Source: Bacteroidales bacterium (GTDB lineage: Bacteria > Bacteroidota > Bacteroidia > Bacteroidales > UBA932). Taken from it: a stretch of DNA of 64,000 nt. The DNA lies in the NCBI GenBank assembly GCA_017548445.1, contig JAFYZZ010000083.1:52825-116824 (forward strand). The letters run 5' to 3'. Positions 28,569-46,577 of the stretch are shown here, one piece after another. The first letter of the stretch is position 1; each line of letters begins with the position of its first letter. The notes under the pieces were generated by a model that was not told where the DNA came from, did no database searches, and saw only the letters and a list, made by a program, of their open reading frames with translations. Made by a program: the position numbers and the translations under genes.

Positions 28569-30757
<2,189 letters not shown>

Positions 30758-30784: not shown

Positions 30785-32758
30785 ATGAGATTCACTAGAT
30801 TTATCGCGGCCTTCGCGGCCGTGCTTGCCCTGTTTTCAGGCTGCCGGCAGGATGAAGATTACGTGCTGCCGAGCCTGGAGGTAGGCACCGGAACCGTCGA
30901 GTTCAACTCCGGTTCGCAGATGACGGTCGAACTGGTGGCCACCCGCGACTGGATGGTCAAGAGCGTGCCCGAATGGGCCGCCGTCGATCCGGACCACGGC
31001 AGCGCCTCGTCCGCGCCGCAGCGCGTGACCATCTCGGTGCTCCCCAATGAGTCCTACGACCGCAAGGGCACCGTCGTGTTCTCCATTGGCCTGAAGCCCG
31101 ATTCTCCCGTCGAGTTGTTCCAGCCCGGTGCGAAGGGGCCGAAGTCCGAGGGTACCGGTACGCTGGAGGATCCCTACACCGTCTCCGGCGTGCTGGCCTA
31201 CATCGGCACCCTGGGCGCCGACGTGGAGAGCCCGCAGGACGTGTACGTCAAGGGTAATATCTCATCCATCAGCGAGGCCTACTCCGCACAGTACGGCAAC
31301 GCCTCCTTCGTGATCAAGGATCCCGACGGCGACCAGACCTTCACGGTGTACCGCGCCAAGTACCTGGGCAACCGGGGCTGGAAGAACGGCGACACCCAGA
31401 TTGCCGAGGGCGACGAAGTGATTGTCTGCGGCCGCGTGGTGAATTTCAAGGGCAACACGCCCGAGACCGCGGCCAACAAGGCCTTCCTGTACTCGCTGAA
31501 CGGCGTTTCCGAGGGCGGCAGTTCCGGCGGTGGCGGCGGGGAGGGAACTCCTTCCGGCACCGGCACGGCCTCGGATCCGTACAATGTCGCGGGTGCCCGT
31601 GCGGCCGTGGCGGACCTGACCTGGACGAGCAACGACGACTACCAGACCACGGACAACGTCTATGTGAAGGGTATTATCAGCAAGATCGCCGACAAGGGCA
31701 CCTTCGGGGAGTCCGGTACCTATGGCAACGCCTCCTTCTACATCAAGGACGATGGCGCCGATGCCGAATTCTACGCTTTCCGCATCCTGTACCTGGGCAA
31801 CAAGAAATACACTTCCGGCACGGACATCAAGGTGGGCGACGAGGTGGTGATCTGCGGCCAGTTGATGAACTATCGCGGCAACACGCCCGAGACGGTGGCC
31901 GGCAAGGCGTACCTGTATTCGCTCAACGGCAATTCCGAAGGTGGTTCCGGCGGTGGTAACGAAGGCGGCGGCCAGGGAGGCGGCACCGGCGAGGTGAAAA
32001 CTGTCAGCGTAGCCGATTTCATCGCGGCGGAGCCTTCCGAAACTCAAAAGTATCAGTTGACCGGCAAGGTGTCGGGCACCATCAACACGCAGTACGGCAA
32101 CTTCGACCTGGTGGACGATTCAGGGACCGTCTATGTCTATGGCCTGACCAAGACAGAACTCGGCTATGGCAAGAAGAATGACCAGAGTTTTGCCAGCCTG
32201 GGCATCAAGGAAGGCGACACGGTCACGCTAATCGGCTACCGTGGCGAGTATCAGGGAAAGATCGAGGTGGTGTACGCCTATTATGTCAGCCACACTTCCG
32301 GTTCCGGTGGAAATGAAGGTGGCGGCAATGAAGGCGGCAGCGAAGGCGGCGGCCAGCAGGGCAACGGCAGCGGCACGCTGAATGACCCGTACAATGCGGC
32401 CGGCGCCGCGGCGGCCGTGGAAAACCTGACCTGGACGAGCAACACCGAGTACCAGACAACGGATGAGGTTTATGTGAAGGGCAAGATCTGCAAGATTGCC
32501 AACAAGGGCACTTTTGGAGAATCCGGCGACTACGGTAATGCTTCTTTCTATATTTCCGACGACGGTAAGGAAAGCGGCACGCAGTTCTACATCTTCCGTA
32601 CCTTGTATCTGGGCAACAAGAAATACGAATCCGGCACGGACATCAAGGTCGGAGACGAGGTTGTCGTCAAGGGCAAACTGATGAATTACAAGGGAAACAC
32701 TCCGGAGACGGAGGGTAACAAGAGCTACATTTATTCCTTGAACGGCAAGACCGAGTAA
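30785..32758 (+). CDS. Surface lipoprotein with BACON-like domain and four OB-fold-type modules
   Basis: A 657-residue predicted lipoprotein (LALFSGC, lipid Cys20). Modules: a BACON-like beta domain at about 31-112 (ATRDWMVKSVPEW); DUF6359-type OB-like repeats at about 124-242, 259-382 and 528-657 (each with DP(Y), VYVKG, YGNASF, YLGN, NTPET, YSLNG); and a different OB-type module at about 404-503 (YGNFDLVDDSGTVYVYGL). Gly/Ser/Glu linkers join them. BACON and OB folds on Bacteroidetes lipoproteins usually bind ligands; the neighbouring secreted nucleases suggest nucleic acids, which is inference. No catalytic motif is seen. It is the first gene of the proposed cluster. Confidence 0.75.
   Translation: MRFTRFIAAFAAVLALFSGCRQDEDYVLPSLEVGTGTVEFNSGSQMTVELVATRDWMVKSVPEWAAVDPDHGSASSAPQRVTISVLPNESYDRKGTVVFSIGLKPDSPVELFQPGAKGPKSEGTGTLEDPYTVSGVLAYIGTLGADVESPQDVYVKGNISSISEAYSAQYGNASFVIKDPDGDQTFTVYRAKYLGNRGWKNGDTQIAEGDEVIVCGRVVNFKGNTPETAANKAFLYSLNGVSEGGSSGGGGGEGTPSGTGTASDPYNVAGARAAVADLTWTSNDDYQTTDNVYVKGIISKIADKGTFGESGTYGNASFYIKDDGADAEFYAFRILYLGNKKYTSGTDIKVGDEVVICGQLMNYRGNTPETVAGKAYLYSLNGNSEGGSGGGNEGGGQGGGTGEVKTVSVADFIAAEPSETQKYQLTGKVSGTINTQYGNFDLVDDSGTVYVYGLTKTELGYGKKNDQSFASLGIKEGDTVTLIGYRGEYQGKIEVVYAYYVSHTSGSGGNEGGGNEGGSEGGGQQGNGSGTLNDPYNAAGAAAAVENLTWTSNTEYQTTDEVYVKGKICKIANKGTFGESGDYGNASFYISDDGKESGTQFYIFRTLYLGNKKYESGTDIKVGDEVVVKGKLMNYKGNTPETEGNKSYIYSLNGKTE
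31154..32755 (+). repeat. Intragenic repeated OB-like modules
   Basis: Three copies of a roughly 120-codon unit at about 31154-31510, 31559-31930 and 32366-32755. The second and third are close at both protein and DNA level (shared LTWTSN, YQTTD, KGTFGESG, GNASFYI). The glycine-rich linkers between units are themselves repetitive, which favours unit gain and loss by recombination. Confidence 0.75.
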
Positions 32759-32761
32759 GCG

Positions 32762-33964
32762 ATGAAACGTCTTCTGTTACTTCTTTTGTCGGCGGCGGTC
32801 CTGTTCGCCTGTACGGACGGACTGGAAGAAGGCCGGCGCAAAGCTTCGCTCGAGGCGTCCCAGGCGGCGCTCGATGCGGGGGGCGGCGCCGTCTTCGTCC
32901 GTGTCAGGGCGGAAGGAGACTGGTCGCTGCACCTGATGGAGGGAGGCGAGTGGGCGACGCTCGGCACCAATTCCGGCAGGGGAGACCGTAACAACATCCT
33001 GCTCAGTTTCGACAGGAATCCGGAGGAAGCCCCCCGTCGGCTGACGATGGAACTGCGCTGCGGGAAGGAATCCGCTTTCCTCGCGCTCAGCCAGGCGGCC
33101 GGCTCGCCGGATGTCCCGGACACTCCGGATACCCCGGACCCGCCGACGCCGACTCCTCCGGCCACTTACGGAACCCCGACGGCGGCCCCGCACTGGCTGG
33201 AACTTCCCGCTACGGATGCCTCCGATGGCCTGTCGTTCTTCTCGCACGACTGTACCATCAGCGGCAAGAAGATGCGCAACTACGCCTACTATTGGGACTT
33301 CGACGCGCGCGTGTCGCACTGGGTGGCCTATCCGCTCTGCAGCGTGTATATGGGCAGCTCCGGCCGCAGCGAGGCCTGGGGTTACGATCCCCTGATGCCC
33401 GCTTCCCTGCAGCAGGACGTGTCCGGTGGCTATCAGGGCAGCGGACGCTATGACCGCGGCCACCAGATTCCTTCGGCCGACCGTACGGCGAACTACAGCC
33501 TGAATTCGACCACCTTCTACGGCGTGAATATGACCCCGCAGAACAATACGCTGAATACCGGCATCTGGGCGACGCTTGAAGGCAAGGTCCGTGACTGGGC
33601 GAACCAGTCCGACACCCTGTACGTCCTGACCGGCTGCGTGGTGGAAGGCTCCACCGCCTATGCGCTCGATCGTTCGGGCCACCACGTCACCGTGCCCGTG
33701 GCCTACTTCAAGGCGCTGCTCCGTTACCAGAAGAACTCCACCATCGGTCACGCAGGCTATATGGCGGCGGGATTCTGGTACGATCACGCCGCGTACAGCA
33801 CCGGCGGCAAGAGCTTCGGCAAGGGCCAGTCTATGTCGCTGGACGAGCTGGAGGCGAAACTGGGCTATAAGCTCTTCGTGAACCTGCCTGAGGTAGCCGG
33901 GGCGGAGAATGCCGCGGCAATCAAATCGGAGAAACCTGCCGACGTCAGTTGGTGGTGGAAATAA
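32762..33964 (+). CDS. Secreted NUC1-type DNA/RNA non-specific endonuclease lipoprotein
   Basis: A 400-residue lipoprotein (SAAVLFAC, Cys17). A BACON-like domain (about 25-115) and a Pro/Asp/Thr-rich spacer (DTPDTPDPPTPTPP) lead to the beta-beta-alpha metal nuclease. YDRGHQIPSADR at about 230-241 is the catalytic DRGH motif, and VNMTPQNNTLNTGIWATLE supplies the metal-binding Asn and following conserved residues. Serratia-type nucleases cut single- and double-stranded DNA and RNA into short oligonucleotides. Anchoring at the surface beside OB-fold lipoproteins and a TonB receptor suggests feeding on extracellular nucleic acid. A 3-base gap separates it from the previous gene. Confidence 0.9.
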   Translation: MKRLLLLLLSAAVLFACTDGLEEGRRKASLEASQAALDAGGGAVFVRVRAEGDWSLHLMEGGEWATLGTNSGRGDRNNILLSFDRNPEEAPRRLTMELRCGKESAFLALSQAAGSPDVPDTPDTPDPPTPTPPATYGTPTAAPHWLELPATDASDGLSFFSHDCTISGKKMRNYAYYWDFDARVSHWVAYPLCSVYMGSSGRSEAWGYDPLMPASLQQDVSGGYQGSGRYDRGHQIPSADRTANYSLNSTTFYGVNMTPQNNTLNTGIWATLEGKVRDWANQSDTLYVLTGCVVEGSTAYALDRSGHHVTVPVAYFKALLRYQKNSTIGHAGYMAAGFWYDHAAYSTGGKSFGKGQSMSLDELEAKLGYKLFVNLPEVAGAENAAAIKSEKPADVSWWWK

Positions 33965-33975
33965 AATGATGGAAT

Positions 33976-35061
33976 ATGAGAAAGATCAGCATATATATCC
34001 TGGCCCTGGCGCTGCTGCTTCCTGCAAACGCGCTGGCGCAGCGCAACCGCAGTTACGTAATCGGGTTCTACAACCTGGAGAACCTCTTCGACACCTATCA
34101 CGACGAGGGGAAGAACGACTACGAGTACCTTCCCGACGGTGCCAACCAGTGGACGGAGGTGAAGTATGAGAAGAAGCTGCACAATATGGCTTCCGTCATC
34201 AAGGCGATCCACGACGACAACAAGGTCTGGCACGCGGTGCTGGGCGTGAGCGAGATCGAGAACCGCCACGTCCTCGAGGACCTGGTGTCGATGCCTGAGA
34301 TCGCCGATGCCGACTTCCAGATCGTCCATTACGACGGTCCGGACCGCCGCGGCGTGGACGTGGCGCTGCTATACCGGCCCTCGGTGTTCCGGGTGCTGGA
34401 GAGCAGGTCCATCCCGTTCACCTTCGAGGGCAGCGAGATCGAGTTCGAGATGAGCCCCGAAGAGCAGGCGGACTTCCGCACCCGCGACATCCTGATGGTT
34501 CGCGGCCTGCTGGGCGGCGAGATGTTCGCCTTCTTCGTGGCGCACCTCCCGTCCCGCAACGGCGGCAAGGGCGGCGACCTCCGCTCCCGCGGCGCCGAGA
34601 TTATGTACCGGGAGTCGATGCGCCTGATGGAGCAGTACCCGGAGATCAAGATCGTCGCGATGGGCGATATGAACGACAACCCCTCCGACCCCAGTATGGC
34701 CTACTATATGCGCGGCAAGGAGAAGATCGAGGAAGTGGGGGAGAAGGACTTCTTCTCTCCGTTCCTGTCGATGCTCAAGGCGGGCTACGGCTCGCTGGCC
34801 TACCAGGGCGAGTGGAACATCTACGACATCCTCGTGGTCAACGCCAACCTGGCCCACCCCGAGCCGGGCACCCTGGGCATCATCCCCATCGTGAAGAACC
34901 GTTTCTACGGCCGCGTCTTCCACAAGCCGTTTATGACGCAGCAGGAAGGCCAGTACAAGGGCACGCCCTTCCGCACCTACTCCAGCGGCGCCTTCATCGG
35001 CGGCTACAGTGACCACTATCCCACCTACATCGTTGTCAGCAACAAAAACGTCACGAGATGA
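33976..35061 (+). CDS. Secreted endonuclease/exonuclease/phosphatase (EEP) family protein
   Basis: A 361-residue protein with a signal peptide (YILALALLLPANALAQ). EEP landmarks appear in order: GFYNLENLFDTYHDEG (metal Asn/Glu), GVSEIENRHVLEDL, RRGVDVALLY, HLPSRNGGKGGDLRSRGAE (catalytic His), GDMNDNPSDPS, and GGYSDHYPTY near the end with the SDH motif. All catalytic positions are present, so activity is likely. Substrates in this superfamily include DNA, RNA and phosphoesters. Placed 12 bases after the NUC1 nuclease gene and overlapping the TonB receptor gene by 4 bases, it may trim fragments or free phosphate at the surface or in the periplasm. Confidence 0.9.
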   Translation: MRKISIYILALALLLPANALAQRNRSYVIGFYNLENLFDTYHDEGKNDYEYLPDGANQWTEVKYEKKLHNMASVIKAIHDDNKVWHAVLGVSEIENRHVLEDLVSMPEIADADFQIVHYDGPDRRGVDVALLYRPSVFRVLESRSIPFTFEGSEIEFEMSPEEQADFRTRDILMVRGLLGGEMFAFFVAHLPSRNGGKGGDLRSRGAEIMYRESMRLMEQYPEIKIVAMGDMNDNPSDPSMAYYMRGKEKIEEVGEKDFFSPFLSMLKAGYGSLAYQGEWNIYDILVVNANLAHPEPGTLGIIPIVKNRFYGRVFHKPFMTQQEGQYKGTPFRTYSSGAFIGGYSDHYPTYIVVSNKNVTR

Positions 35062-37991
35062 AACCTGGAATCAAAGCGCTTTTCTGCACCCTTCTCTTCT
35101 TCCCGTGCCTCCTGTCCGCCCAGGATCTGCCTGAACGCGGCCTGACGGGCACGGTGGTCAGCCGTACGGACCGGCAGCCGGTCCCGGGTGCAACCGTCGT
35201 CCTGTATCAGGGCGCGGCGGAGGTGGCATCGGCCGTGGCGGATGAAAACGGACGTTTCCGCCTCATCGGGCTGGACCTGGGCGACTACGACCTGGTGGTC
35301 AACGCCGCCCAGTACCTCGAGACCCGTATGGGCGTGGCGGTCACCGACGCCGTCAGGAACCTCTTCAACATTTCTCTCAGCCAGTCGCGTCCCGAGTTCT
35401 ATGAGGATATGGTGGACGAGTTCGATATGGACGACAGCGGCTACAGCGACAATCCCACGGTCCTGTTCGACCAGAACGACGTGTTCAGCAGCGTGGCGGG
35501 CTACAACTTCAGCGCCGTACGCTTCAACCTGCGCGGCTATTCTTCCGAATCGCAGGACGTCTACCTGGCGGGCGTGAAACTGAACGACGCCGTGACGGGT
35601 TATTCCCCGTTCTCGCTGTGGAGCGGCCTGAACGAGGCCACGCGCAGCAAGACCTCCGTCACCGGCTCGGAAGTGTCGGATTACGGTATAGGCGGCTACA
35701 ACGGCCTGACCAACATCTACGCCGATGCCCCCAACATCCGCACCGGCCTGCGGGGCAGCGTGCTCACCAACAGTTCGCTGTACCGCCTCCGCCTGATGCT
35801 CACCTACGGATCGGGTATGCTGGACAGCGGATGGTCCTGGGCCGTCTCCGCCTCCGCCCGCCTGGGCGGCAACGACTGGATCGACGGCGTGTACTACCGT
35901 TCCTTCGCCTACTATGCCGGCGTGGCCAAGGCCTGGCGAAACCACAAGCTGGCGTTGACGATTATGGGCACCCCGGGCAGCCGCGGCGCCCAGAACGCCT
36001 CCACCCAGGAGGTCTATGACCTGGTGGGCGACAATATGTACAACTCCAACTGGGGTTACCAGGGCGGCCGGCTGCGCAACTCGCGCGTGCGCAACACCCA
36101 CGAACCCATCGCTTTCCTGAAATACGACTACAACCCTTCCGACGCCTTCAGCGCTTCCGCCACCCTGTTGTTCCGCTTCGGCTACAACGGCTACACGGCG
36201 CTGGACTGGTACGACGCGCAGGACCCCCGCCCGGACTACTACCGCAACCTTCCCAGCTATTTCTGGATGGAGAACGAGGACTACGGGCGCAGCAGTCTGT
36301 ACAAGTATGCCGCGGCCAAGGAGGCCTGGACGCATCCGCAGACCTTCTCGGACATCACGCACATCAACTGGGACCGCCTGTACGACGTGAACCGCAACAA
36401 CATCGAGGGCGGCGGTGCGCGCTCCAAGTACATCCAGGAAGAGCGCCACGTGGACCAGCGCGACCTGAACTTCGCGGCCCGCTTCAAATGGCATCCCACC
36501 CGCGTGCTCACGCTTACGGGCGGCCTGAACGGGCGCATCGACCGCGCGGAGTATTATAAAAAGGTATATGACCTGCTGGGCGGCGAGTACTATGTGGACA
36601 CCGACTCCTTCGCGGAGCGCGAGTTCGCTTCCGTGGAGGCCAAGACCCAGAACGACCTGGACTACTACCTGGAGCACGGTTCCGCCCGTGTCCTGCGCAA
36701 GGGAGACAAGTTCGGCTACGACTACTACGCGCAGGTCCGCAAGGGCGAGGGCTGGCTGAACGGCCGTTTCGCCTTTGGCAACTTCAGCGCCAACATCGGC
36801 GGCGCCCTGGGCTACACCGCCTTCTGGCGGGAAGGTCTGGTGCGCAAGGGCCTCTTCCCGGGGCTCCGACCGGACGGCGGCGACTATGTGATCGGCGGGG
36901 TGAATCTCAGCCGCGACGCGGCCGGCAACCTGCTGCCGTCTTCGTATGGCAAGTCTTCCGTGAACGGCTTCGTCACGTATTCCGGCAAGCTCGGGCTGAA
37001 CTGGGTGATCGGCGGCAAGATGCGCTTCTACGCCAACGCGGCCGCGTTCAACGAGGCGCCCAACTTCGCCACGGCCTATCTCTCGCCGCGCACCCGCGAC
37101 TCGGTGGTGGACGACCTCAAGCCGGTCAAGACCTACACGGCCGACGTGAACTGGCAGTACTCCGGCGGCGGCTACAACGTCCGCATCACGGGCTACTATA
37201 CCAAGATCAACGACCAGACCGACGTGATGAGCGCCTACGACGACCTGCAGAACGCCTTCTCGAACTTCGCCCTGAGCGGCATCGACGAGCAGCACTACGG
37301 CGTCGAACTGGGCTTCAAGGTCCCCACGCCCATCCCCGACTTTTCCCTCCAGGGCGTGGTGAGCGCCGGACGCTATGAGTACACGTCCAACCCCACGATG
37401 GTGCAGACGGTGGACAACAGCGCGCAGCCCGTGCAGTACGGCACCGGCACCACGGTGCTGATTCCGTACTGGAAGAGCCACCCGGTGTTCAAGCGCGACG
37501 GCAACGGCCAGATTACCAGTGAGATCGACCGCTTCCAGCAGCACTACGTGCCCGGCACGCCGATGCTGGCCACCAGCATCGGTTTCGCCTACAACCACAA
37601 TTACTGGTTCATCGACGGCGACTTCGAGTACTTCGCCGAGTCCTACCTGAGTATGAACCCGCTCTACCGCACCGACTTCGCCACGGCGGGCCCCGACAGC
37701 TACGTGACCCCGGCCGAGGTGGAGTATATGGCCTCGCAGGAGCGCTTCAAGCCATTCTACCTGCTGAACCTGAGCATCGGCAAGAGCTGGTACATCGACC
37801 GCAAGTACCAGATCGGCTTCTCGCTGAACGCCAAGAACCTGCTGAACCGCAAGGACGTGAAGACCGGCGGTTACGAACAGACCCGCATCGTGGACAACAC
37901 CACCAGCGGCGAGCGCTACTACCGCTTTGATTCGAAGTACTTCTATATGAGCGGTTTCAATTATATGTTGAACGTCTATTTCAGATTCTAG
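35058..37991 (+). CDS. TonB-dependent outer-membrane receptor with N-terminal carboxypeptidase-regulatory-like domain
   Basis: A 977-residue protein with a signal peptide ending LLSAQ. Residues about 30-105 form the CarboxypepD_reg-like fold (GTVVSRTDRQPVPGATVVLY), followed by a plug with VRFNLRGYSSESQDVYLAGV and a long 22-strand-type barrel rich in aromatic/alternating strands ending in LNVYFRF. No SusD gene accompanies it, so it is not a SusC/SusD pair; Bacteroidetes receptors next to DUF5689 and EEP genes form their own group. It should import a bound ligand using TonB energy; oligonucleotides, nucleosides or phosphate-rich fragments are plausible. Confidence 0.88.
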   Translation: MKPGIKALFCTLLFFPCLLSAQDLPERGLTGTVVSRTDRQPVPGATVVLYQGAAEVASAVADENGRFRLIGLDLGDYDLVVNAAQYLETRMGVAVTDAVRNLFNISLSQSRPEFYEDMVDEFDMDDSGYSDNPTVLFDQNDVFSSVAGYNFSAVRFNLRGYSSESQDVYLAGVKLNDAVTGYSPFSLWSGLNEATRSKTSVTGSEVSDYGIGGYNGLTNIYADAPNIRTGLRGSVLTNSSLYRLRLMLTYGSGMLDSGWSWAVSASARLGGNDWIDGVYYRSFAYYAGVAKAWRNHKLALTIMGTPGSRGAQNASTQEVYDLVGDNMYNSNWGYQGGRLRNSRVRNTHEPIAFLKYDYNPSDAFSASATLLFRFGYNGYTALDWYDAQDPRPDYYRNLPSYFWMENEDYGRSSLYKYAAAKEAWTHPQTFSDITHINWDRLYDVNRNNIEGGGARSKYIQEERHVDQRDLNFAARFKWHPTRVLTLTGGLNGRIDRAEYYKKVYDLLGGEYYVDTDSFAEREFASVEAKTQNDLDYYLEHGSARVLRKGDKFGYDYYAQVRKGEGWLNGRFAFGNFSANIGGALGYTAFWREGLVRKGLFPGLRPDGGDYVIGGVNLSRDAAGNLLPSSYGKSSVNGFVTYSGKLGLNWVIGGKMRFYANAAAFNEAPNFATAYLSPRTRDSVVDDLKPVKTYTADVNWQYSGGGYNVRITGYYTKINDQTDVMSAYDDLQNAFSNFALSGIDEQHYGVELGFKVPTPIPDFSLQGVVSAGRYEYTSNPTMVQTVDNSAQPVQYGTGTTVLIPYWKSHPVFKRDGNGQITSEIDRFQQHYVPGTPMLATSIGFAYNHNYWFIDGDFEYFAESYLSMNPLYRTDFATAGPDSYVTPAEVEYMASQERFKPFYLLNLSIGKSWYIDRKYQIGFSLNAKNLLNRKDVKTGGYEQTRIVDNTTSGERYYRFDSKYFYMSGFNYMLNVYFRF

Positions 37992-37997
37992 GGCCTT

Positions 37998-39071
37998 ATG
38001 AAGAAGATATCCTCCTTTGCTTTGATTCTCGCCCTGCTGCTCTCTTCCTGCGAGGAATGGCAGCCGGTGACGACGCTCACATATCCCGACCCCGAGGAGC
38101 GCGAGCCTCTGCTGATCGACGTCAACACCACCATCGCGCAGCTCAAGCAGATGTACCTGGACAACGGCAGCAGCGGCCTGGAAATCACCGGCCACGTATG
38201 CATCGGCGGCCAGGTGGTCTCGAGCGACCGCAGCGGCAACATCTACCGCGACCTGTACATCCAGGACGAGACCGGTGCCATCTGCGTCAAGGTGGGCAAG
38301 TCCTCCCTCTATAGCGACTACCACCCCGGCCAGTGGGTGTACGTGGACTGCGCCGGCCTGCGGCTGGGCGCGTATAACGGAATGCCCCAGCTGGGTATCG
38401 AGGACGAGTCCGGCAAGAACGACACCGCATACATCGACGCCCAGTACCTGATCGACACGCATATCTTCCGCGGCCGCATCGCGGCGATGCCCGAGCCGCG
38501 CGTCGTGACCTCGGCCGAACTGGAGCAGGCCCTCAAGGACGGCGGCTTCAAGAGCGACCTCTGGGGCCGTTACGTCAAGCTCAAGCACCTGACCTACGGC
38601 GCCGCCACCACCTACAGTTCGGACAGTTACAAGCGCATCTTCGCCATCCTCTACATCGACGACAGCTCCGAGAACCGCGTGTTCCTGAGCGACAGGACCT
38701 ATGGCGTGACCACCTGGGCGATGACCAAGGCCAAGCTCCTGGAGAACATCGACGCCGGCAAGTTCGCGGGCGTGAGCACCCAGGGCGGACGCAAGGTGGA
38801 AGGCGAACTGCTCGAGCAGCTGCGCGCCAACGCCTCGCCGGTCACGATGAGCCAGTACTTCTCGCTGGGCGGCACGCCCGTGCAGATCCGCACCAGCGGC
38901 TATTCCAAGTTCGCCGATTCCGAGATCCCTTCATCCGTGATCGGCGACCCGTCTTCCAGCTCGGCCGACGGCCGGGCCATCGACGTCACCGGCCTGCTGT
39001 CCATCTACAACGGGGCGGCGCAGTTCACCCTGATCGACCTCGACGGCGTCCGCCTGTCCTCGACCAACTGA
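37998..39071 (+). CDS. DUF5689-type lipoprotein with OB-like fold
   Basis: A 357-residue lipoprotein (LILALLLSSC, Cys18). It opens with a Pro/Glu-rich tether and TTIAQLKQMYLDNGSSGLEI, TGHVCIGGQVVSSDRSGNIY, YIQDETGAICVKVG, a pattern I associate with DUF5689, an OB-like family that regularly follows TonB receptors in Bacteroidetes. A second OB-like half ends with FTLIDLDGVRLSS. It probably acts as the surface ligand-binding partner of the receptor 6 bases upstream, in the place SusD would take. Function of the family is not established. Confidence 0.75.
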   Translation: MKKISSFALILALLLSSCEEWQPVTTLTYPDPEEREPLLIDVNTTIAQLKQMYLDNGSSGLEITGHVCIGGQVVSSDRSGNIYRDLYIQDETGAICVKVGKSSLYSDYHPGQWVYVDCAGLRLGAYNGMPQLGIEDESGKNDTAYIDAQYLIDTHIFRGRIAAMPEPRVVTSAELEQALKDGGFKSDLWGRYVKLKHLTYGAATTYSSDSYKRIFAILYIDDSSENRVFLSDRTYGVTTWAMTKAKLLENIDAGKFAGVSTQGGRKVEGELLEQLRANASPVTMSQYFSLGGTPVQIRTSGYSKFADSEIPSSVIGDPSSSSADGRAIDVTGLLSIYNGAAQFTLIDLDGVRLSSTN

Positions 39072-39081
39072 TGCCCCGCCT

Positions 39082-40308
39082 ATGAGAAAGATCCGATACG
39101 TTCTGTTGACGGCCCTGCTGCTGCTTCCCGCGCTCCTTTCCGCGCAGGAGGTGCTGCAGCGGGACTCCGTCAAGGTGTACTTCCACCAGGGCAGGTCCCA
39201 GTTCGATCCGCTGTTCCAGGAAAATGTCTGGCGCCTGTCGGAACTGTCCAACCGGGTGAAGCAGCTTCAGCGCGATTCCCTCTGCCGCATCGAGCGGGTG
39301 GAGGTCATCGGCAGCGCGTCGCCCGAAGGCTCCGACGAGGTGAACAGGCGACTGACGCGCGACCGGGCATACAGCATCCTCGACTACCTGCGCCCGCACC
39401 TGCAGTTCGACGAGAAGAACTTCGAGGTGGTCTTCAACCAGCTGGACTGGGACTACCTGGGTTCGCTCGTAGAGGCTGACGCCGGCGTGCCCTCCCGTGG
39501 CGAGGTGCTCCGCCTGATCGGGGAGCGCGACCTGGCCGGCCTGAAGAAGGACCAGGCTGCGTGGAACTATATGCTGAAGAACCTCTTCCCCGAAATGCGC
39601 GCCACCATCGTGGCGTTCGAGTATTTGGCGCTGGAGTCGGAACTCAGGAAGCTGGAGCCCCCCGTCGTGGTGGTGGAGGAACCCGAGCCCGCCCCTCAGG
39701 TCGATACCGTACGGCCGGTGCGCAACTACACCCCGCCGCCCCTGCCCGATGACGACGACTTCCCGCTGGACCTTTCCGACGGGGAACCTGGCCCGAGCAT
39801 CTACCTCAAGACCAATCTGTTGCTCTGGCCCCTGCTGGACGCCAACCTGGGCGTGGAGTTCGAGATCGGCGAGCATATGTCCTTCAGCCTCCCGGTCATC
39901 TACAGCGCGCTCAACTGGTTCACCGAGAACACCAAGTTCCGCAGCCTGGGCACGCAGCCCGAACTGCGCTTCTGGCTGTTCGACGACTTCCACGGTCCGT
40001 TCCTGGCCCTGCACGGCACGCTGGGCTACTACAACGTGGCGCTTCCCTCGTGGCAATACCGCATCCAGGACCGCGACGGCCGCACGCCGGCCTACGGCGG
40101 CGGTCTCAACGCCGGATGGAAATTCCGGCTGGACCGCAACCGAGCCGACCGCTGGGGCCTCGAGATCAGCCTCGGCTACGGCTATCTGCATCTTGACTTC
40201 GACCGTTTCGAGAACTACGACAACGGTCCTTACGCGAGCTCGGGCATCGAGGATTACCTCGGCCCCGACCACGCTTCCGTGGCATTGACTTACCGATTTG
40301 GACGATGA
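39082..40308 (+). CDS. DUF3575-type protein: OmpA-like domain plus outer-membrane barrel (fimbrial locus type)
   Basis: A 408-residue protein with a signal peptide (TALLLLPALLSAQ). Residues about 28-130 resemble an OmpA/peptidoglycan-binding fold (IERVEVIGSASPEGSDEVNR, LTRDRAYSILDYL). A Pro/Glu spacer (PPVVVVEEPEPAP) leads to a C-terminal beta barrel (SIYLKTNLLLWPLLDANLGV to ALTYRFGR) like DUF3575. Such proteins are encoded beside FimA/Mfa1-type fimbrillins in Bacteroidales. It may anchor or assemble the two fimbrillin-like lipoproteins that follow. The stop overlaps the next start by 4 bases. Confidence 0.75.
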   Translation: MRKIRYVLLTALLLLPALLSAQEVLQRDSVKVYFHQGRSQFDPLFQENVWRLSELSNRVKQLQRDSLCRIERVEVIGSASPEGSDEVNRRLTRDRAYSILDYLRPHLQFDEKNFEVVFNQLDWDYLGSLVEADAGVPSRGEVLRLIGERDLAGLKKDQAAWNYMLKNLFPEMRATIVAFEYLALESELRKLEPPVVVVEEPEPAPQVDTVRPVRNYTPPPLPDDDDFPLDLSDGEPGPSIYLKTNLLLWPLLDANLGVEFEIGEHMSFSLPVIYSALNWFTENTKFRSLGTQPELRFWLFDDFHGPFLALHGTLGYYNVALPSWQYRIQDRDGRTPAYGGGLNAGWKFRLDRNRADRWGLEISLGYGYLHLDFDRFENYDNGPYASSGIEDYLGPDHASVALTYRFGR

Positions 40309-41276
40309 TGACACGTGTACTGAAAATACTGCTCCTGTTGCTGGGCGGCCTGTTCCTGTCCGGGCTGTGCGGCTGCTCGCCGCACGAATTCCCGGACGAC
40401 TGGGGCAACGGCTGCCGTGTCAGGCTGGTCTTCGACGAGACCCTGCCGCAGTACCAGGTGCTCCATCCGGCCACGAAGGGGGAGGGCTATGCGGCGCGGA
40501 AGGTGCGCTACACGGCGAAGCTCTTCCGTTTCAAGGAGGCGTCCGCATACGGCCTGAACCCGGACTACAGCTTCTCCTTCACGCGGACGGAACTCGACGA
40601 CCTGGACACGACCATCGTGCTCCCGAGGATGGAAGGAAGGTTCAAACTGGCGGTCTGGGCGGATTTCGTGGACGAGGAGGATTCCCTGTCCTGGAAGCCC
40701 GACGACTTCGAACGCATCGTCCTGGCCAAGGACTACCGCCTGGGCGAGCGGGAGCGCGACGCCTTCTGCGGCACGCTCGACATCGACCCCGGCGAAGTCA
40801 AGAGAAATGACGAGCCCTTGACTATGACCCTCCGCCGCCCCGTAGCGCAGATCCGTTTCTACCTTTCGAATGCGGATGAATTCCTCGCCGAGCAGAACAC
40901 CGACCTGGGCGGCCTGTATGTCACTTTCCGCTATACGGCCCCCATTCCCGACACCTACGACCTCCTGCGGGGTCACAGTTCGGGTGCCCGCTCCGGCGTG
41001 CGCCTCTCGCTGTACCCGGAGATCGACCCGTTCTCCGGCGAACTCGTCTTCTTCTCGGACTTCATCCTGGCCGAAGAGGAGCCGACCAGCGTCAGCGTGT
41101 ACTTCGCCGTGCGTGACGACGACGGCGAGCCGTACTTCACCTTCCGCGGCGACGTCCCCATCCTGCGGGCCCACCGCACGGACGTCTGCTTCGGTCCGCA
41201 GGACGACGACGGCTCCGGCGGCGGCGTCGGTATCGACCCCGGTTTCGACGGCAGTTACAACATATCCATCGATTAG
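40305..41276 (+). CDS. FimB/Mfa2-like fimbrillin-family lipoprotein
   Basis: A 323-residue lipoprotein; the signal peptide contains two candidate lipid cysteines (LSGLCGC, Cys22/Cys24). The body fits the anchor/minor fimbrial subunit pattern: an N-terminal beta domain with LPQYQVLHPATKGE, the central RPVAQIRFYLSNADEF segment found in fimbrillin-like proteins, and a C-terminal domain ending in GFDGSYNISID. FimB/Mfa2 proteins hold type V pili to the outer membrane and set their length. The next gene encodes a longer fimbrillin-like protein with related sequence (RPFAQINVLLADEF), so this is its likely anchor. Confidence 0.75.
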   Translation: MMTRVLKILLLLLGGLFLSGLCGCSPHEFPDDWGNGCRVRLVFDETLPQYQVLHPATKGEGYAARKVRYTAKLFRFKEASAYGLNPDYSFSFTRTELDDLDTTIVLPRMEGRFKLAVWADFVDEEDSLSWKPDDFERIVLAKDYRLGERERDAFCGTLDIDPGEVKRNDEPLTMTLRRPVAQIRFYLSNADEFLAEQNTDLGGLYVTFRYTAPIPDTYDLLRGHSSGARSGVRLSLYPEIDPFSGELVFFSDFILAEEEPTSVSVYFAVRDDDGEPYFTFRGDVPILRAHRTDVCFGPQDDDGSGGGVGIDPGFDGSYNISID

Positions 41277-41324
41277 ATACGATTCAACATATAGTTTATT
41301 CATTTACTCACATTTTTCACATCT

Positions 41325-44105
41325 ATGAAAAAGATCCTTTATTCTTTGCTGACGCTCGCGGCCGCGCTGACCGTGGCGTCCTGCCAGAAGGAACCGGCCA
41401 ACCCGGATCCTATCTTTGGCGGCAAGACCGTCGAGACGACTTTCACCGTCGCGCTGGACGAGCTTCCGACCAAGACCTATGCCGACGGTGCCACCGCCGA
41501 CAAGCTCTTCGTGCTGGTGTATGGGGCCGACGGTCTGGTGGAGAGCCAGTCTCTGACCACCTCTACCGACGCCATCCAGATCACCGGCCTGAAGGCCTCC
41601 TACAAAGTCAAGTTCGTGAAGGGACAGACCTACGACATCGTGTTCTGGGCCCAGGCCGAGGATGCTCCTTTCTCCCTCGATGCGGACACCGGCAAGCTGA
41701 CCATTGAGACCACGGGCCCTGCCAACGACGAGACCCGCGACGCTTTCTGGTATGTCGAGAGGGGCTATGTCGCCAACGCGAACGATGCGGCGACGGTTAC
41801 GCTGAAGCGTCCCTTCGCCCAGATCAACGTCCTCTTGGCCGACGAGTTCGAGGAGGGGACCCTCTCCGAGATGACCGTTGCGGGCGCGCCCAACGTGCTC
41901 GACCTGCTTACCGGAGAGGCTTCCGGCGAGGAAGACTACAGTTTCACCGAAGCGGGACTGGAAGATGCCACGTTCAACAAGAAGTATGCTTCCGGAAAGA
42001 ATTACGCCTATGCCGGGATGAACTATGTGCTCGCCCCGAAGGATGAGACCCTTTCCACGGAGGTCACTTTCAAGGTTACCTGCATCAGCGAAGCGCTCGG
42101 CACCATCGAGATCGATAAGGCTGTCTCCGGCGTGCCTGTGAAGCGCAATTACCGCACGAACATCACCTACAGCCCCACGACGAGCAAGGACTACAATGTC
42201 ATCATCGCTCCGGGTATGGATGGCAGCCACGACGACATCAGCGCCGATGCCGAGGCGAATGCTTTCACGGTTCAGGTCGGCGGCAGCGAATTCGCCAACA
42301 ATGCGACCCTCACGATGGCTCCCAATGAGACTGTCAATGTGACGATTACGGACGCCAATGGCCATACGCCCGATAGCGCCGAGTCCACTGATGAGACTGT
42401 CGTGACGGTCGAGGAGGCCCAGGGTGGCTATGAAATGTCTGCCCTTAAGAAGGGTTCTGCGGACATCAATTTCCACATCGACGGTTACACCAAGCAGGAC
42501 GTGCAGGGTGCAGATTTCACCATCAAGGTGAATGTCCCCGGCGATCCCGTTCTTGAGAGCATTGCCGTCGATACTAAGAATGCCACGACGACCTTCGCCC
42601 TGAACGGCACCTTCACTTCCGAGGGCATCGTCGTCACGGCCACGTATGACGAGGGCGATCCCAAGGATGTGACTGCGTCCGCCACCGTTACCGCTCCGGA
42701 TATGTCCACTGCGGGCGAGAAGACGGTCACCGTCTCTTACACTGAGGGCGGCGTTACGAAGGAGGCGACATATACCATTACGGTTGAAGGCGAGACGCCG
42801 CCGGTGGCCGCCACCCTGACGGGCATCACGGTCGACGCTTCTGCTGCCACGACGACCTTCACCGTGGGCGACACCTTCACCTCCGAGGGCATCAAGGTTA
42901 CGGCAACTTATAGCGACGAGAGTACCAAGGATGTGACTGCGGCTGCCACCGTTACCGCTCCGGATATGACCACTGCGGGCGAGAATAAGGAGGTTACCGT
43001 CTCCTACACCGAAGGCGACATCACGAAGACCGCCACGTACACCATTATGGTGAATGAAGGCGAAACGCCGCCGTCTGGTGCTATAGTTGCTACTGTTGCT
43101 GAGTTCTTGGCCGCTGAAGAGTCAGAGACTCAAACCTATCAGTTGACGGGCGTGATTACGAACATTTCGAGTAATGTATATGGTAATCTGGACCTTAAAG
43201 ATGAAACAGGGACTGTTTATGTCTATGGCGTGTTCCCTGAACAATGCGAGTATGGAGCTACCAATCCTAAGAGTTTTGGTGATCTTGGTCTAAAGGTTGG
43301 AGATGAACTGACCCTTATTGGATATCGGGGCTCTCATAATAATAGTCCCCAGGCAGTTTATTCATATTATGTAAGCCATAAGACCGCAGCTACTATTTCG
43401 TTAGCTGCTACGGAAACCGAATTGCCTGTCGGAGGAACATTTAACTTAAATGTTCAAACTAATGGAGGACAGATTACGTATAAATCTAGTGATGAGGCCG
43501 TTGCAAGCGTAACTACTGGAGGTGTTATTACTGGTGTCGCAGTGGGCACGGCGACAATTACCGTTAGTGTAGCTGCTTCCGGAAATCTAATTGGTAATAC
43601 TGCGACTTGTACGGTTACAGTTAACCCTGCAGGTTCAACAGTTGTGTGGGTCAAAAAGAATCTTTCTGACCTTAAAGATGGGGATATCTTTGTCCTAACT
43701 AGTGTAAAAACAGGGGAGGAGTTTTATGCTATGACTAATAATAATGGCACTTCTTCTGCTCCTGGTGCAGTGGCCGTAACAGTTGCTTCTGATAAACTGT
43801 CCGATACTCCTGAAACTAAACTTCAGTGGATTGCTGGTGTGTCAAGTGATGGAATAGTTTTTTATACTAGTAGCGAAAAAACGGCATGGCTTTATTGTAC
43901 TAATGCCAATAATGGTTTGAGGGTAGGTACAAATGCTAATAAAGCTTTTGAAATCGATTCTGAGAGCGGGTATTTAAAACATGTTGCTGAAACTCGTTTC
44001 GTTGGTGTGTATAATAACTCCGACTGGAGAAGTTATGCGACTGTTAACAATAATATCAAAGACCAAACCTTTAATGTCTTTGTGAAAACGACCACCACTG
44101 ATTGA
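41325..44105 (+). CDS. Multidomain fimbrillin-like lipoprotein with Ig-like and OB modules; ends at an in-frame TGA before a nuclease
   Basis: A 926-residue lipoprotein (TVASC, Cys20). Residues about 30-300 are fimbrillin-like (RPFAQINVLLADEF; GVPVKRNYRTNITY). Then come a beta segment, two nearly identical bacterial Ig-like (Big_3-type) repeats at about 407-489 and 496-578, an OB-type module at about 587-686 related to that of the 30785 protein, a Big_2-type domain at about 690-768 and a C-terminal domain. From about base 43080 (codon 586) the DNA becomes AT-rich although the frame continues. The TGA at 44103 is followed in the same frame by a Ser/Thr/Gly linker, a FN3-like region and a nuclease, so the original gene may have been longer. 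Confidence 0.78.
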   Translation: MKKILYSLLTLAAALTVASCQKEPANPDPIFGGKTVETTFTVALDELPTKTYADGATADKLFVLVYGADGLVESQSLTTSTDAIQITGLKASYKVKFVKGQTYDIVFWAQAEDAPFSLDADTGKLTIETTGPANDETRDAFWYVERGYVANANDAATVTLKRPFAQINVLLADEFEEGTLSEMTVAGAPNVLDLLTGEASGEEDYSFTEAGLEDATFNKKYASGKNYAYAGMNYVLAPKDETLSTEVTFKVTCISEALGTIEIDKAVSGVPVKRNYRTNITYSPTTSKDYNVIIAPGMDGSHDDISADAEANAFTVQVGGSEFANNATLTMAPNETVNVTITDANGHTPDSAESTDETVVTVEEAQGGYEMSALKKGSADINFHIDGYTKQDVQGADFTIKVNVPGDPVLESIAVDTKNATTTFALNGTFTSEGIVVTATYDEGDPKDVTASATVTAPDMSTAGEKTVTVSYTEGGVTKEATYTITVEGETPPVAATLTGITVDASAATTTFTVGDTFTSEGIKVTATYSDESTKDVTAAATVTAPDMTTAGENKEVTVSYTEGDITKTATYTIMVNEGETPPSGAIVATVAEFLAAEESETQTYQLTGVITNISSNVYGNLDLKDETGTVYVYGVFPEQCEYGATNPKSFGDLGLKVGDELTLIGYRGSHNNSPQAVYSYYVSHKTAATISLAATETELPVGGTFNLNVQTNGGQITYKSSDEAVASVTTGGVITGVAVGTATITVSVAASGNLIGNTATCTVTVNPAGSTVVWVKKNLSDLKDGDIFVLTSVKTGEEFYAMTNNNGTSSAPGAVAVTVASDKLSDTPETKLQWIAGVSSDGIVFYTSSEKTAWLYCTNANNGLRVGTNANKAFEIDSESGYLKHVAETRFVGVYNNSDWRSYATVNNNIKDQTFNVFVKTTTTD
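42543..43058 (+). repeat. Tandem Ig-like (Big_3-type) coding repeat
   Basis: Two adjacent units of about 83 codons (42543-42791 and 42810-43058) sharing TFTSEGI, VTATY, KDVTA, ATVTAPDM, TAGE and VTVSYTEG, with long identical DNA stretches. A recent duplication within the gene is likely. Confidence 0.75.
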
Positions 44106-44156
44106 AGTCCCGGGACCGGAGGCACTGCGACGGTTACGACCGGCTCTGCTTCTTCG

Positions 44157-45251
44157 TTGACCATAAGCAGTGCAACCCTCTCCGGCTCCGTTTCCGGCAT
44201 AACGTCCGGTTGGACGGTCAGTGAATGCGGATTCAAGTGGGGTACTGCCTCCGGCTCTTTGACGAGCACCCTGAAGGCCTCCCTCTCCAACAACGGTTGG
44301 GGAGGGACCCTGACGGGGCTCAGTAAGGGTTCGACTTACTACTATTGCGCCTATGTCGTTCTGAAAAACGGCAACGACAGCAAGACGGTCAGTGGCTCAG
44401 TGGAGCAATTCTCCACGTTGTCGCAATCCGAGGCCATTGTGGTAGGAGACGTTTCCTGGCTTGAACTCCCGTCCTTGTCGGTATCCGGCAATCAGTTGAT
44501 CCGTACGCTCTACGGCAGTAATGGAGAAAGGAACTATAGCTATCTTTACGACAAGACCTATTATGCCTCGCTCTGGGAAGCATACCCGCTTAAATTAGCC
44601 CACACAAAGGGCAGCAAAAGCAGTAGCTGGTCATTCAATCCCGATGAGGACATCGATGAGGCATATCAGGTTGATGTCGTCAGCAATAGTTATGGTACCC
44701 AGTATGGCAACAAAGCATATAGCCGCGGCCATCAGGTGCCCAATGCTGACCGCAAGTCGGACAGTAAGATGAATTCGCAGACATATTATGTCACCAACCA
44801 GACGCCGCAGTTGCAGAATAAATTCAACGGCTCCATCTGGGGTAACCTCGAGACCGCTGTGCGCGGTTTGTTGGACAGTGACTCTGATATCGTCTATGTG
44901 GTCACGGGACCTGTCTATAAGACAAAAGGTGGCAGCGAGACAATCAACTACTTGACAGCGAAATCAGACGTTACTCCGTCAAAGGTGCCTATCCCGAACT
45001 ATTACTGGAAAGTCCTTCTGAAAGTCAAGACGGATTCCTCCGGCAATGTGACTTCGGCATCGGCTATCGGTTTCTGGTTCAAGCACAAGGATTATGGTGA
45101 TGACAGCGACTCGACTGACTATGCCGACTATGCTGTTTCCGTGGCCGAGATTGAACGCAAGACTGGATTCGATTTCTTCTCCAATCTCCCCGACTCGATT
45201 GAAAGCACAGCCGAGGCCAACACATCCTGGGATAAGTTCAAGAAGTTCTGA
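44157..45251 (+). CDS. NUC1-type DNA/RNA non-specific endonuclease, probable separated 3' part of the preceding gene
   Basis: A 364-residue frame that can only begin at TTG 44157; it has no signal peptide and no ATG until deep in the nuclease domain. It is in the same frame as the 926-residue gene upstream, and the 51 bases between them are open after the TGA. Residues 1-88 form an FN3-like domain (WTVSECGFKWGTASGS; STYYYCAYVVLKNG). The nuclease core has YSRGHQVPNADR at about 188-199 (canonical DRGH has Asp where this has Ser; Arg-Gly-His kept) and VTNQTPQLQNKFNGSIWGNL for the metal Asn. It likely depended on the upstream part for export. Confidence 0.7.
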   Translation: MTISSATLSGSVSGITSGWTVSECGFKWGTASGSLTSTLKASLSNNGWGGTLTGLSKGSTYYYCAYVVLKNGNDSKTVSGSVEQFSTLSQSEAIVVGDVSWLELPSLSVSGNQLIRTLYGSNGERNYSYLYDKTYYASLWEAYPLKLAHTKGSKSSSWSFNPDEDIDEAYQVDVVSNSYGTQYGNKAYSRGHQVPNADRKSDSKMNSQTYYVTNQTPQLQNKFNGSIWGNLETAVRGLLDSDSDIVYVVTGPVYKTKGGSETINYLTAKSDVTPSKVPIPNYYWKVLLKVKTDSSGNVTSASAIGFWFKHKDYGDDSDSTDYADYAVSVAEIERKTGFDFFSNLPDSIESTAEANTSWDKFKKF

Positions 45252-45294
45252 TAACAGTCTTCGGACACAATGACTTAAAGACCGGAAAAGCACC

Positions 45295-45328
45295 GAGGGT
45301 GACCATCAAGCGATGGCCACCCTCTTTG
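45295..45328 (+). terminator. Rho-independent terminator after the nuclease gene
   Basis: GAGGGTGACCATC (45295-45307) pairs with GATGGCCACCCTC (45312-45324) with a single A-C mismatch and a 4-base loop, followed by TTTGTTTG. It closes the nucleic-acid/fimbrial cluster 43 bases after the nuclease stop. Confidence 0.85.
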
Positions 45329-45442
45329 TTTGATCCAACCCTTCTCCCCGCGGCAGCCGGAGGGGTGCTTGTGCGTAAGCCTGCGCACGTTGGCCCCGCG
45401 CAGTCGGGGGCCGTGCGTGGGGTGCGGAGGGAACGGCTGCCG

Positions 45443-45463
45443 CACCCCTGCCGCCTCCGGCGA
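45443..45463. repeat. 21-bp direct repeat, left copy
   Basis: CACCCCTGCCGCCTCCGGCG plus A, identical to 46746-46766. The gene-free stretch 45329-45509 around it is GC-rich and full of short inverted repeats (for example GGCCCC with GGGGGCC near 45392-45412, and an imperfect inverted copy, GCCGGAGGGGTG, near 45358-45369). Confidence 0.8.
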
Positions 45464-45509
45464 TTACAAATCGCGCTCGAGGGTCTCGTCCTCGTGCAAC
45501 ACCATTGCT

Positions 45510-46577
45510 TTATTTAACCATCTCTCCCTGCTGGATCCGAAAAACTTCTTTCTGCCTTTCAATTTCTTGTCGGAGTTCTGCATCGGAAGGCAGAAAGGTG
45601 AGGTATTTGGCAGCAAATAGCTGAGGGTTCTCTCGAAGAACGGAATACCTCGCTATGTCTTTGCTTGTCTCCGTACACAAGATAAGTCCGATGGTCGGAT
45701 TGTCTCCCTCCGTCCTTTTAAGCTCGTCATACATCCGCACATACATATCCATCTGCCCAACATCTTGATGACTTATCTTGGTAGTCTTAAGATCGACAAG
45801 CAGAAACGCCTTCAAAAGGTAGTTGTAGAAAACAAGGTCAATGAAGAAATCACCAATATCTGTGGAAATGTGTTGTTGTCGGGCAACGAATGCATATCCT
45901 TTACCCAGTTCTAGAAGGAATCGCTGGATATGTGTCAGAATGGCACCCTCTAAACTTGATTCAGTAAAATCAATGTTGCTGGGCAGGCCCAGAAATTCGG
46001 CCACCACAGGGTTCTTGATAAACTCATATCTGTCTGCCTGAAGTGTCGCTGTTTTATCTTTCATCTCCTGTTTGACCTGTTCTTTATGTTGGGACTGCAG
46101 GAGGCGATAGTAATACTGAGATCCGATGTTCCGTTCAAGGGTGCGTACGCTCCAGGACTCGGCGGAGGCTTCGTTCAAATACCACTCCCGAGCATTTTCA
46201 TCAACTACGGAAAGTAGCGTCCGAAAATGAGACCAGGTCAGATTTCTCATACGTGTGTGCCAAATCTCATAATCCGGGAACAGAATATAGAATAGCCGGA
46301 AGTTGCGCAAATTCCTTTCTGTGAATCCTTTACCAAATTCTTCCGTTAAAGTTTTGGAAAGCGTTTGCAAGAGTTGTGTGCCATATTTCGCGCGTAATTC
46401 GCCACGCTGTTCCTCTTCAACGATTCGTTGGCCGATGCGCCAATAAGTTTCGACTATTGTGGAATTGACTGCAGCAGATGCGGATTGCCGACCAGATCGT
46501 ACGATGTTCAATACATCATCGATGAGTTGCTTCTCTGATAGAGATGTATCGGAAATCATAGTACGCATCGTTTTCAT
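45510..46577 (-). CDS. DUF1016/YhcG-family PDDEXK nuclease
   Basis: A 355-residue protein. The N-terminal DUF1016 helical region is clear (VETYWRIGQRIVEEEQRG; YGTQLLQTLSKTLTEEFGKG; FTERNLRNFRLFY). The C-terminal PD-(D/E)xK fold shows DIGDFFIDLVFYNYLLKAF and LLVDLKTTKISHQDVGQMDM with the Asp and D-x-K residues. YhcG proteins are found in mobile and defence-related islands, but their role is unsettled. Here it stands alone, moderately AT-rich, with no restriction or defence partner, between two copies of a 21-bp repeat. No promoter motif was found upstream. Confidence 0.88.
   Translation of the reverse strand: MKTMRTMISDTSLSEKQLIDDVLNIVRSGRQSASAAVNSTIVETYWRIGQRIVEEEQRGELRAKYGTQLLQTLSKTLTEEFGKGFTERNLRNFRLFYILFPDYEIWHTRMRNLTWSHFRTLLSVVDENAREWYLNEASAESWSVRTLERNIGSQYYYRLLQSQHKEQVKQEMKDKTATLQADRYEFIKNPVVAEFLGLPSNIDFTESSLEGAILTHIQRFLLELGKGYAFVARQQHISTDIGDFFIDLVFYNYLLKAFLLVDLKTTKISHQDVGQMDMYVRMYDELKRTEGDNPTIGLILCTETSKDIARYSVLRENPQLFAAKYLTFLPSDAELRQEIERQKEVFRIQQGEMVK

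Follow-up and report, generated by a model that had tools for sequence, protein, structure and literature searches.

We analysed a 64,000-nucleotide stretch of a Bacteroidales bacterium genome (GenBank assembly GCA_017548445.1, contig JAFYZZ010000083.1, positions 52,825 to 116,824), here called the window, in which a tightly packed + strand cluster at 30785-45251 encodes lipoproteins, nucleases, an outer-membrane receptor and a fimbrillin-type protein. An original prediction, made from the letters alone, had read the cluster as nine consecutive genes that bind, cut and import extracellular nucleic acid, tied to fimbrial-type proteins. Pfam and NCBIfam scans of genes 1-9, together with the reading frames, gave the features below; coordinates are positions in the window, and core and fimbrial module denote 30785-39071 and 39082-45251, respectively.

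30785..32758, +, gene 1 (core): lipoprotein with BACON and repeated OB-like modules (PF13004, 27.5 bits; PF01336, 44.7; PF13742, 43)
32762..33964, +, gene 2 (core): NUC1 nuclease lipoprotein with its own signal peptide (PF01223, 117.3 bits; sub-threshold BACON)
33976..35061, +, gene 3 (core): secreted EEP-family nuclease/phosphatase (PF19580, 299.4 bits)
35058..37991, +, gene 4 (core): TonB-type outer-membrane receptor (PF13620/PF13715 plug extension; TonB barrel slightly below cut-off)
37998..39071, +, gene 5 (core): DUF5689 lipoprotein, predicted OB fold(s) (PF18942, 132.7 bits; model with predicted local distance difference test score, pLDDT, of 82.4)
39082..40308, +, gene 6 (fimbrial module): DUF3575 protein with an OmpA-like part (DUF3575, 114.6 bits; OmpA sub-threshold)
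40305..41276, +, gene 7 (fimbrial module): DUF6562 lipoprotein (112 bits), FimB/Mfa2-like according to the original prediction
41325..44105, +, gene 8: fimbrillin-type lipoprotein with Ig-like and OB-like modules, short form up to the TGA (Big_3, Big_2)
44103..44105, +, in-frame TGA, proposed readthrough stop, next base A (from the reading frame)
44106..45251, +, nuclease extension, formerly gene 9: linker, FN3-like module and NUC1, 381 codons (PF01223, 139.1 bits)

Genes 1-8 are + strand open reading frames (ORFs) spanning 30785-44105, separated by gaps of 3 to 48 bases or joined by 4-base overlaps, as originally predicted, and Pfam agrees with the domains that had been named. The four OB modules attributed to gene 1 are visible by eye as repeats, and two stretches exceed the Pfam cut-off. 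The description of gene 8 as fimbrillin-like with Ig and OB modules holds in part: Big_3 and Big_2 are present, and the fold of its N-terminal third matches Bacteroides putative adhesins and Mfa2 (5nfi), but that model is weak (pLDDT 60.8) and no fimbrillin Pfam match was found in the gene 8 protein. Sequence listings hold gene 8 as a 926-residue protein (P0121) in 7 contigs.

These are not nine independent genes. The ninth ORF of a program-made list (44157-45251) begins at a TTG, but its frame is that of gene 8 and stays open from 44106 to 45251, directly after a single TGA (44103-44105); there is no ATG before codon index 221 of this extension, and no signal peptide. Read from its sequence, gene 9 is thus not a gene in its own right: a single reading frame runs through genes 8 and 9, interrupted by one conserved TGA. 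The original prediction had missed this, the most unusual feature of the interval. In the related loci L002, L003 and L004 a fimbrillin ORF and a nuclease ORF likewise share one frame with exactly one TGA between them, and in L001 the contig stops within gene 8. The same layout recurs in genome G766 (L200, after its core) and genome G696 (L202), where an rfbB-like gene follows, as in the window (synteny by eye).

To place these junctions among their relatives, we searched for NUC1-family (NUC) ORFs in 299 genomes of the family (233 with a match) and 101 of the genus (90 with a match at 1e-50), and fetched the best 30 loci from each search plus hand-picked regions. Among the 164 unique NUC ORFs, 89 had a detected signal and 45 had none and followed an in-frame TGA that closes a stretch of 100 or more open codons; 9 followed TAA, 1 followed TAG, 11 were classed as other and 9 lay at contig edges. 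The signal-peptide rule missed the ORF's own signal in 17 cases that were seen by eye (all 10 of the TAA/TAG group and 7 of the others). Thus all ten NUC ORFs that lie behind a long upstream frame closed by an in-frame TAA or TAG have their own hydrophobic signal, whereas the TGA-preceded ones lack it, and none of the 164 is an intact signal-less tail behind TAA or TAG. This is the informative control, as the TGA in the final set is there by construction of the filter. Removal of one duplicate left 44 distinct in-frame TGA junctions in 39 related genomes and the window, with an upstream open frame of 380-1478 codons where fetched and an extension of 263-537 codons. The four remaining ORFs of the other class are L083, L094, L191 and L152; L083 is in frame, but lies 23 codons from its contig start. 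A broader stop scan was noisy (94 TGA, 43 TAG and 41 TAA cases without early ATG passed), and its raw counts were not used because they are mostly antisense open frames of GC-rich DNA. Sequencing or assembly error was rejected as the cause of the TGA, given the many independent assemblies.

Fused counterparts of the split gene also occur. In G766 a single ORF specifies an 876-residue fimbrillin-nuclease, in which GAA GTC TTC TGC GGG ACA TCC GGG aligns with GAC GTA TAT TAC TGA ACG TCC GGG of L083; in this codon-by-codon match a glycine codon, GGG, stands at the position of the stop. In a search with the stop-bridged window protein, for which 120 of 257 proteins were listed, 22 of those 120 have an alignment within one ORF that starts 22 or more residues ahead of the stop and reaches the nuclease end. 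L112 and L115 (G267 and G270) hold back-to-back nuclease genes on opposite strands, one fused without a stop and one behind TGA.

Several features suggest that the tail is used. The ORF upstream of the junction is a signal-peptide lipoprotein of 553-1447 residues in 19 of the 20 loci fetched in full, and the eight that were scanned carry Big_3, BACON, fn3 or InlB-type repeats or no Pfam match. The best 12-residue hydrophobic count is 3-6 in extensions against 7-12 in the upstream ORFs. The RGH and NxxPQ motifs are kept in 41/44 extensions, and the ratio of non-synonymous to synonymous rates (dN/dS) is 0.16-0.50 (the 12 pairs with finite values of the 14 closest); judged by these ratios, the nuclease tails are under purifying selection. 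The stop is also set in an unusual context. The base following it (+4) is A in 30 junctions, G in 10, C in 4 and never T, whereas 24 of 58 ordinary TGA stops have T there (Fisher p 1.2e-7); U at +4 is reported to reduce readthrough (PMC5289835). The context thus qualifies as leaky by the absence of T (0/44), with the classic leaky C not enriched (4/44). Where the third codon after the stop encodes serine it is TCC in 33 of 33 cases, compared with 556 of 2227 serine codons (25%) across the extensions, and TGA is the rarest stop of the core genes (48/323, in 80 loci).

A GC-rich hairpin begins 7 nucleotides past the UGA in 30 of the 44 junctions. This is about the usual distance of recoding stimulators after a stop. 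A first alignment (A3) and hairpin model (R1) used 16 junctions, picked by eye from an early set of 25; a second alignment (A4) took junctions by the TCC rule plus L192 and L205, excluded L004, L127, L174 and L210 by eye, and merged identical rows. Across its 29 distinct rows 98.9% of cells are paired, a percentage in part selected since rows were picked by the TCC rule or by eye, and three of six pairs show two-sided changes, which were not selected; pair 15-25 occurs as AU, CG, GC, GU and UA. Covariation is 0.294, against 0.071 in shuffled alignments (0/500 shuffles) and at most 0.059 when the helix is slid, and RNAalifold returns the same helix. Synonymous shuffles fold worse than the native sequences (mean z -1.90 for the 30 hairpin-type junctions, -0.71 for the 14 others). 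Searching the 299 genomes with R1 gave 25 matches in 20 genomes, 21 of them in-frame TGA-nuclease junctions (16 training, and L134, L141, L145, L149 and L153 as new), three frame-disrupted (L148, L152, L154) and one false (L155). Rfam gathering and tRNA scans of the window were both empty.

We conclude that programmed UGA readthrough probably adds nuclease tails to surface lipoproteins. The basis is comparative: the shared frame, the TGA, the absent start and signal, conservation, selection, hairpin covariation and the conserved core described below. A number of observations weigh against this conclusion. The hairpin test fails in 14 of 44 junctions, among them the window's own, which has no hairpin (z +0.31 by dinucleotide shuffles, -0.28 by synonymous shuffles), and an order-wide search with the hairpin model found 0/393, in a sample holding no positive control. 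TGA accounts for 7 of the 11 stops listed for the window's own cluster and, being common there, is less telling taken alone. L094 (the same as L086) and L191 follow a TGA but share no frame with a long upstream ORF, that of L094 lying in another frame; the L152 junction (G294:C9) has a one-base shift, with TAA ahead of its own frame; and L148 and L154 are frame-disrupted and decayed, while L155 is a false match. The 44 junctions are not a prevalence, because the filter required an in-frame TGA and drew on best-match lists and hand-picked regions. Finally, we infer alike the occurrence and level of readthrough, the decoding tRNA, assembly into a pilus and the substrate. The shift in L152 coincides with seven consecutive G in the hairpin; slippage or phase variation could explain it.

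Four other explanations of the split gene can be set against readthrough. Were the nuclease translated separately, by reinitiation or internal initiation, the TTG 51 bases after the stop in the listed ORF might serve as a start; however, ATG occurs in the first 23 codons of 0/44 extensions and in the first 40 of 5/44, the positions of GTG and TTG differ among the window, L002, L003 and L004, and a nuclease so made would remain cytoplasmic as it has no signal peptide, all of which makes two proteins very unlikely. That former fimbrillin-nuclease genes are decaying after nonsense mutation fits the existence of fused homologues and the decayed state of L148 and L154, but the same stop type stands at the same domain border in 40 genomes including the window, with intact motifs, dN/dS below 0.5 and a covarying hairpin, and we regard decay as highly improbable. 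A selenocysteine codon, or a reassigned UGA, is the least probable of all. Bacterial selenocysteine insertion generally has a UGA followed by a downstream hairpin, which the layout here resembles, but SelB (TIGR00475) was above cut-off in 0/21 genomes and tRNA-Sec (RF01852) found in 0/21 (controls 2/14 and 5/14), a set with many draft metagenome-assembled genomes (MAGs) and without the window's own genome; and recA, trpS and several other genes here end in TGA, showing that it is a real stop. We rejected this candidate on those two grounds.

The fourth explanation is switching at the level of DNA. TGA, linker and nuclease would together be a 3' cassette open to exchange, either like a shufflon or as an orphan C-terminal tip, and would stay silent until recombination produced a stop-free fusion. 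In its favour, gene 8 ends alike in the window and L002 (82% over 89 bases), yet the nuclease types that follow differ; upstream proteins also differ widely between junctions, and fused forms occur. GC content declines as well, from about 0.60 to 0.41-0.53 from 43 kb on; the dip at 43000-46500, to 0.41-0.56, takes in the last part of gene 8 together with the nuclease extension and yhcG and suggests recent exchange. On the other side, the frame is kept over exactly one stop in 44 junctions against three TGA- or shift-type exceptions among intact signal-less NUC ORFs, no recombinase was seen beside the window junction, and the tails show the purifying selection described above. We consider such switching unlikely as the means of expression; cassette exchange may have spread the tail without being an expression switch. 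The low-GC stretch adjoining the split gene also holds a YhcG/DUF1016 PDDEXK protein (45510-46577, -) that strongly matches the PADLOC candidate defence family PDC-S02.

Genes 1-5 form the neighbouring core, which we traced by a receptor-alignment scan of a genome collection: 522 pattern matches, 481 of which, more than chance would give, encode receptor relatives. The best 80 loci were examined, all of them Bacteroidales-type MAG records and many rumen-derived. The order OB lipoprotein, NUC1, EEP, receptor, DUF5689 is kept around the receptor in most of them. DUF5689 directly follows the receptor in 80/80; NUC1 lies upstream in 77/80, missing in L004 and in L034 and L080, where the contigs start there; EEP is present in 77/80 by an overlap rule that wrongly drops L004 and L068, which do have it; and the OB lipoprotein is upstream in 68/80, or in 66/70 when only loci with 3.5 kb or more of upstream sequence are counted. 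The 120 best homologues of gene 4 are 60-90% identical across 96-100% of the query. From this conservation of order, genes 1-5 are a conserved operon.

Capture, cutting and import of nucleic acid is likely the role of this core, and remains the best reading of it, given the conserved order, the predicted DUF5689 structure and a pair of genes from Riemerella anatipestifer. The DUF5689 model is an OB fold resembling nucleic-acid binders (Foldseek and VIA matches), and gene 5 matches NF052645, named after a Riemerella locus, below cut-off (2.5e-13 over 97 residues); PDB sequence searches with the receptor and with DUF5689 gave no relevant match. In R. anatipestifer a DUF5689 lipoprotein adjoining a PF13620 outer-membrane protein is reported to be essential for DNA uptake by natural transformation (PMC8459023). 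M949_1556 was rejected as a bridge to this pair: it is described in terms of antigenicity and pathogenicity, and we do not equate it with RA0C_RS04920. The same Riemerella result would favour a core that serves transformation, taking up intact DNA, not feeding, with its nucleases processing DNA at the surface. This would also fit recA two genes upstream in the window (recA at 28569-29597, then trpS at 29597-30757) and a reported fall in transformation on TonB mutation, whose authors tie tonBB to iron (PMC8383284). We find it possible but somewhat unlikely: two core nucleases point to degradation, recA/trpS precede the core in 4/80 loci, all closest relatives (L001-L004), and homologues of the Riemerella receptor are reported only in Flavobacteriaceae (PMC8459023), which also counts against our own reading of the core. 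If correct, that reading offers a candidate route of nucleic-acid uptake for Bacteroidales without a known outer-membrane DNA pore.

The proposed tie of this core to the fimbrial-type proteins as one system was not supported by the comparison. Genes 6 and 7 follow the core in 4/80 loci (L001-L004), with at least 4 kb of downstream sequence in 71 of the 80, and likewise in G766, found later; thus the predicted co-occurrence is borne out for the core order, but not for the fimbrial genes. The interval is, by this measure, two modules, the fimbrial one a local neighbour of the conserved core. In L125 (G004) there is one more OB/fimbrillin ORF-TGA-nuclease unit, and behind it a further DUF3575/DUF6562 pair. 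Elsewhere in the window are a patatin phospholipase with an Omp85-family barrel (24960-27557, -), a DUF4493 and DUF6359 protein of a kind resembling the cluster's surface lipoproteins (62568-63620, -), and, around the interval, genes of sugar-nucleotide and polysaccharide biosynthesis (5838-6812, 12876-13967, 20387-21355, 50374-52290).

We suggest the following model, in which genes 8 and 9 would be one gene with a leaky stop. Most ribosomes would terminate at the UGA at 44103-44105, yielding a fimbrillin-type surface lipoprotein; a minority would decode it and read on, still in frame, across a linker rich in Gly/Ser or Pro and then an FN3-like module to reach NUC1, so that a small share of surface subunits bears a nuclease tail. 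In most related junctions the hairpin would raise the leak. The core operon next door would bind, cut and import nucleic acid, and the tailed fimbrillin would act near the cell surface, cutting DNA or RNA that has been captured. More tentatively, and short of what we would call probable, hairpin-assisted UGA readthrough may be a standing device of the whole family. Among its diverse surface lipoproteins and fimbriae a fixed minority would then bear a nuclease tail, with the dosage of surface enzyme set by recoding; the level of release factor 2, or a near-cognate tRNA, might tune this dosage at times of nucleic-acid harvest, and in the present lineage the device would be linked to a dedicated nucleic-acid uptake operon.

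To our knowledge, readthrough other than selenocysteine insertion is rarely documented in bacterial chromosomes. If true, this would be a tractable model of bacterial readthrough: it would span a family, include a covarying RNA element and counterparts with a sense codon, and carry an enzymatic payload. It would also tie fimbriae to nuclease display, and mean that gene-calling programs cut such proteins short; the L002-type gene 8, for one, is entered at NCBI as a fimbrial subunit of 872 amino acids. We found no report of such readthrough in Bacteroidales in the open-access literature, subscription papers and preprints lying outside the search. The kind of mechanism is already known; its setting, payload and scale are, as far as our searches show, not described in that literature.

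Several known systems resemble parts of the interval. The Riemerella genes RA0C_RS04920 (DUF5689) and RA0C_RS04915 (PF13620) resemble genes 5 and 4 as an adjacent lipoprotein and outer-membrane barrel without SusD, as given in Table 3 of PMC8459023; here OB, NUC1 and EEP genes are added, and the likeness is one of domains and adjacency, orthology not being established. SusC/SusD polysaccharide utilisation loci similarly join a TonB-type receptor and surface lipoproteins in an operon, but here the scans of genes 1-9 found no SusD-family lipoprotein beside the receptor and no glycan enzyme. The N-terminal fold of gene 8, weakly modelled as it is, recalls Bacteroidetes type V (FimA/Mfa) fimbriae, from which it differs by a long Ig/OB stalk and an optional nuclease tail. 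That tail belongs to the same family, with the same RGH and NxxPQ motifs, as the secreted NUC1 (PF01223) DNA/RNA non-specific endonucleases, but stands behind an in-frame UGA without a signal peptide of its own. In phage Q-beta a leaky UGA in the coat protein gene yields a minor, C-terminally extended surface subunit, as we propose here; that case is viral and has no enzyme tail, whereas ours concerns chromosomal surface lipoproteins. For CS3 pili of enterotoxigenic E. coli, a 1989 paper by Jalajakumari, cited in PMC1914089, reportedly has 'bypassing an amber codon' in its title, and so, as far as that title goes, stop-codon bypass has been proposed in a pilus gene cluster before; there it concerns UAG in a single cluster, and here UGA at many loci, with a nuclease tail and often a hairpin.

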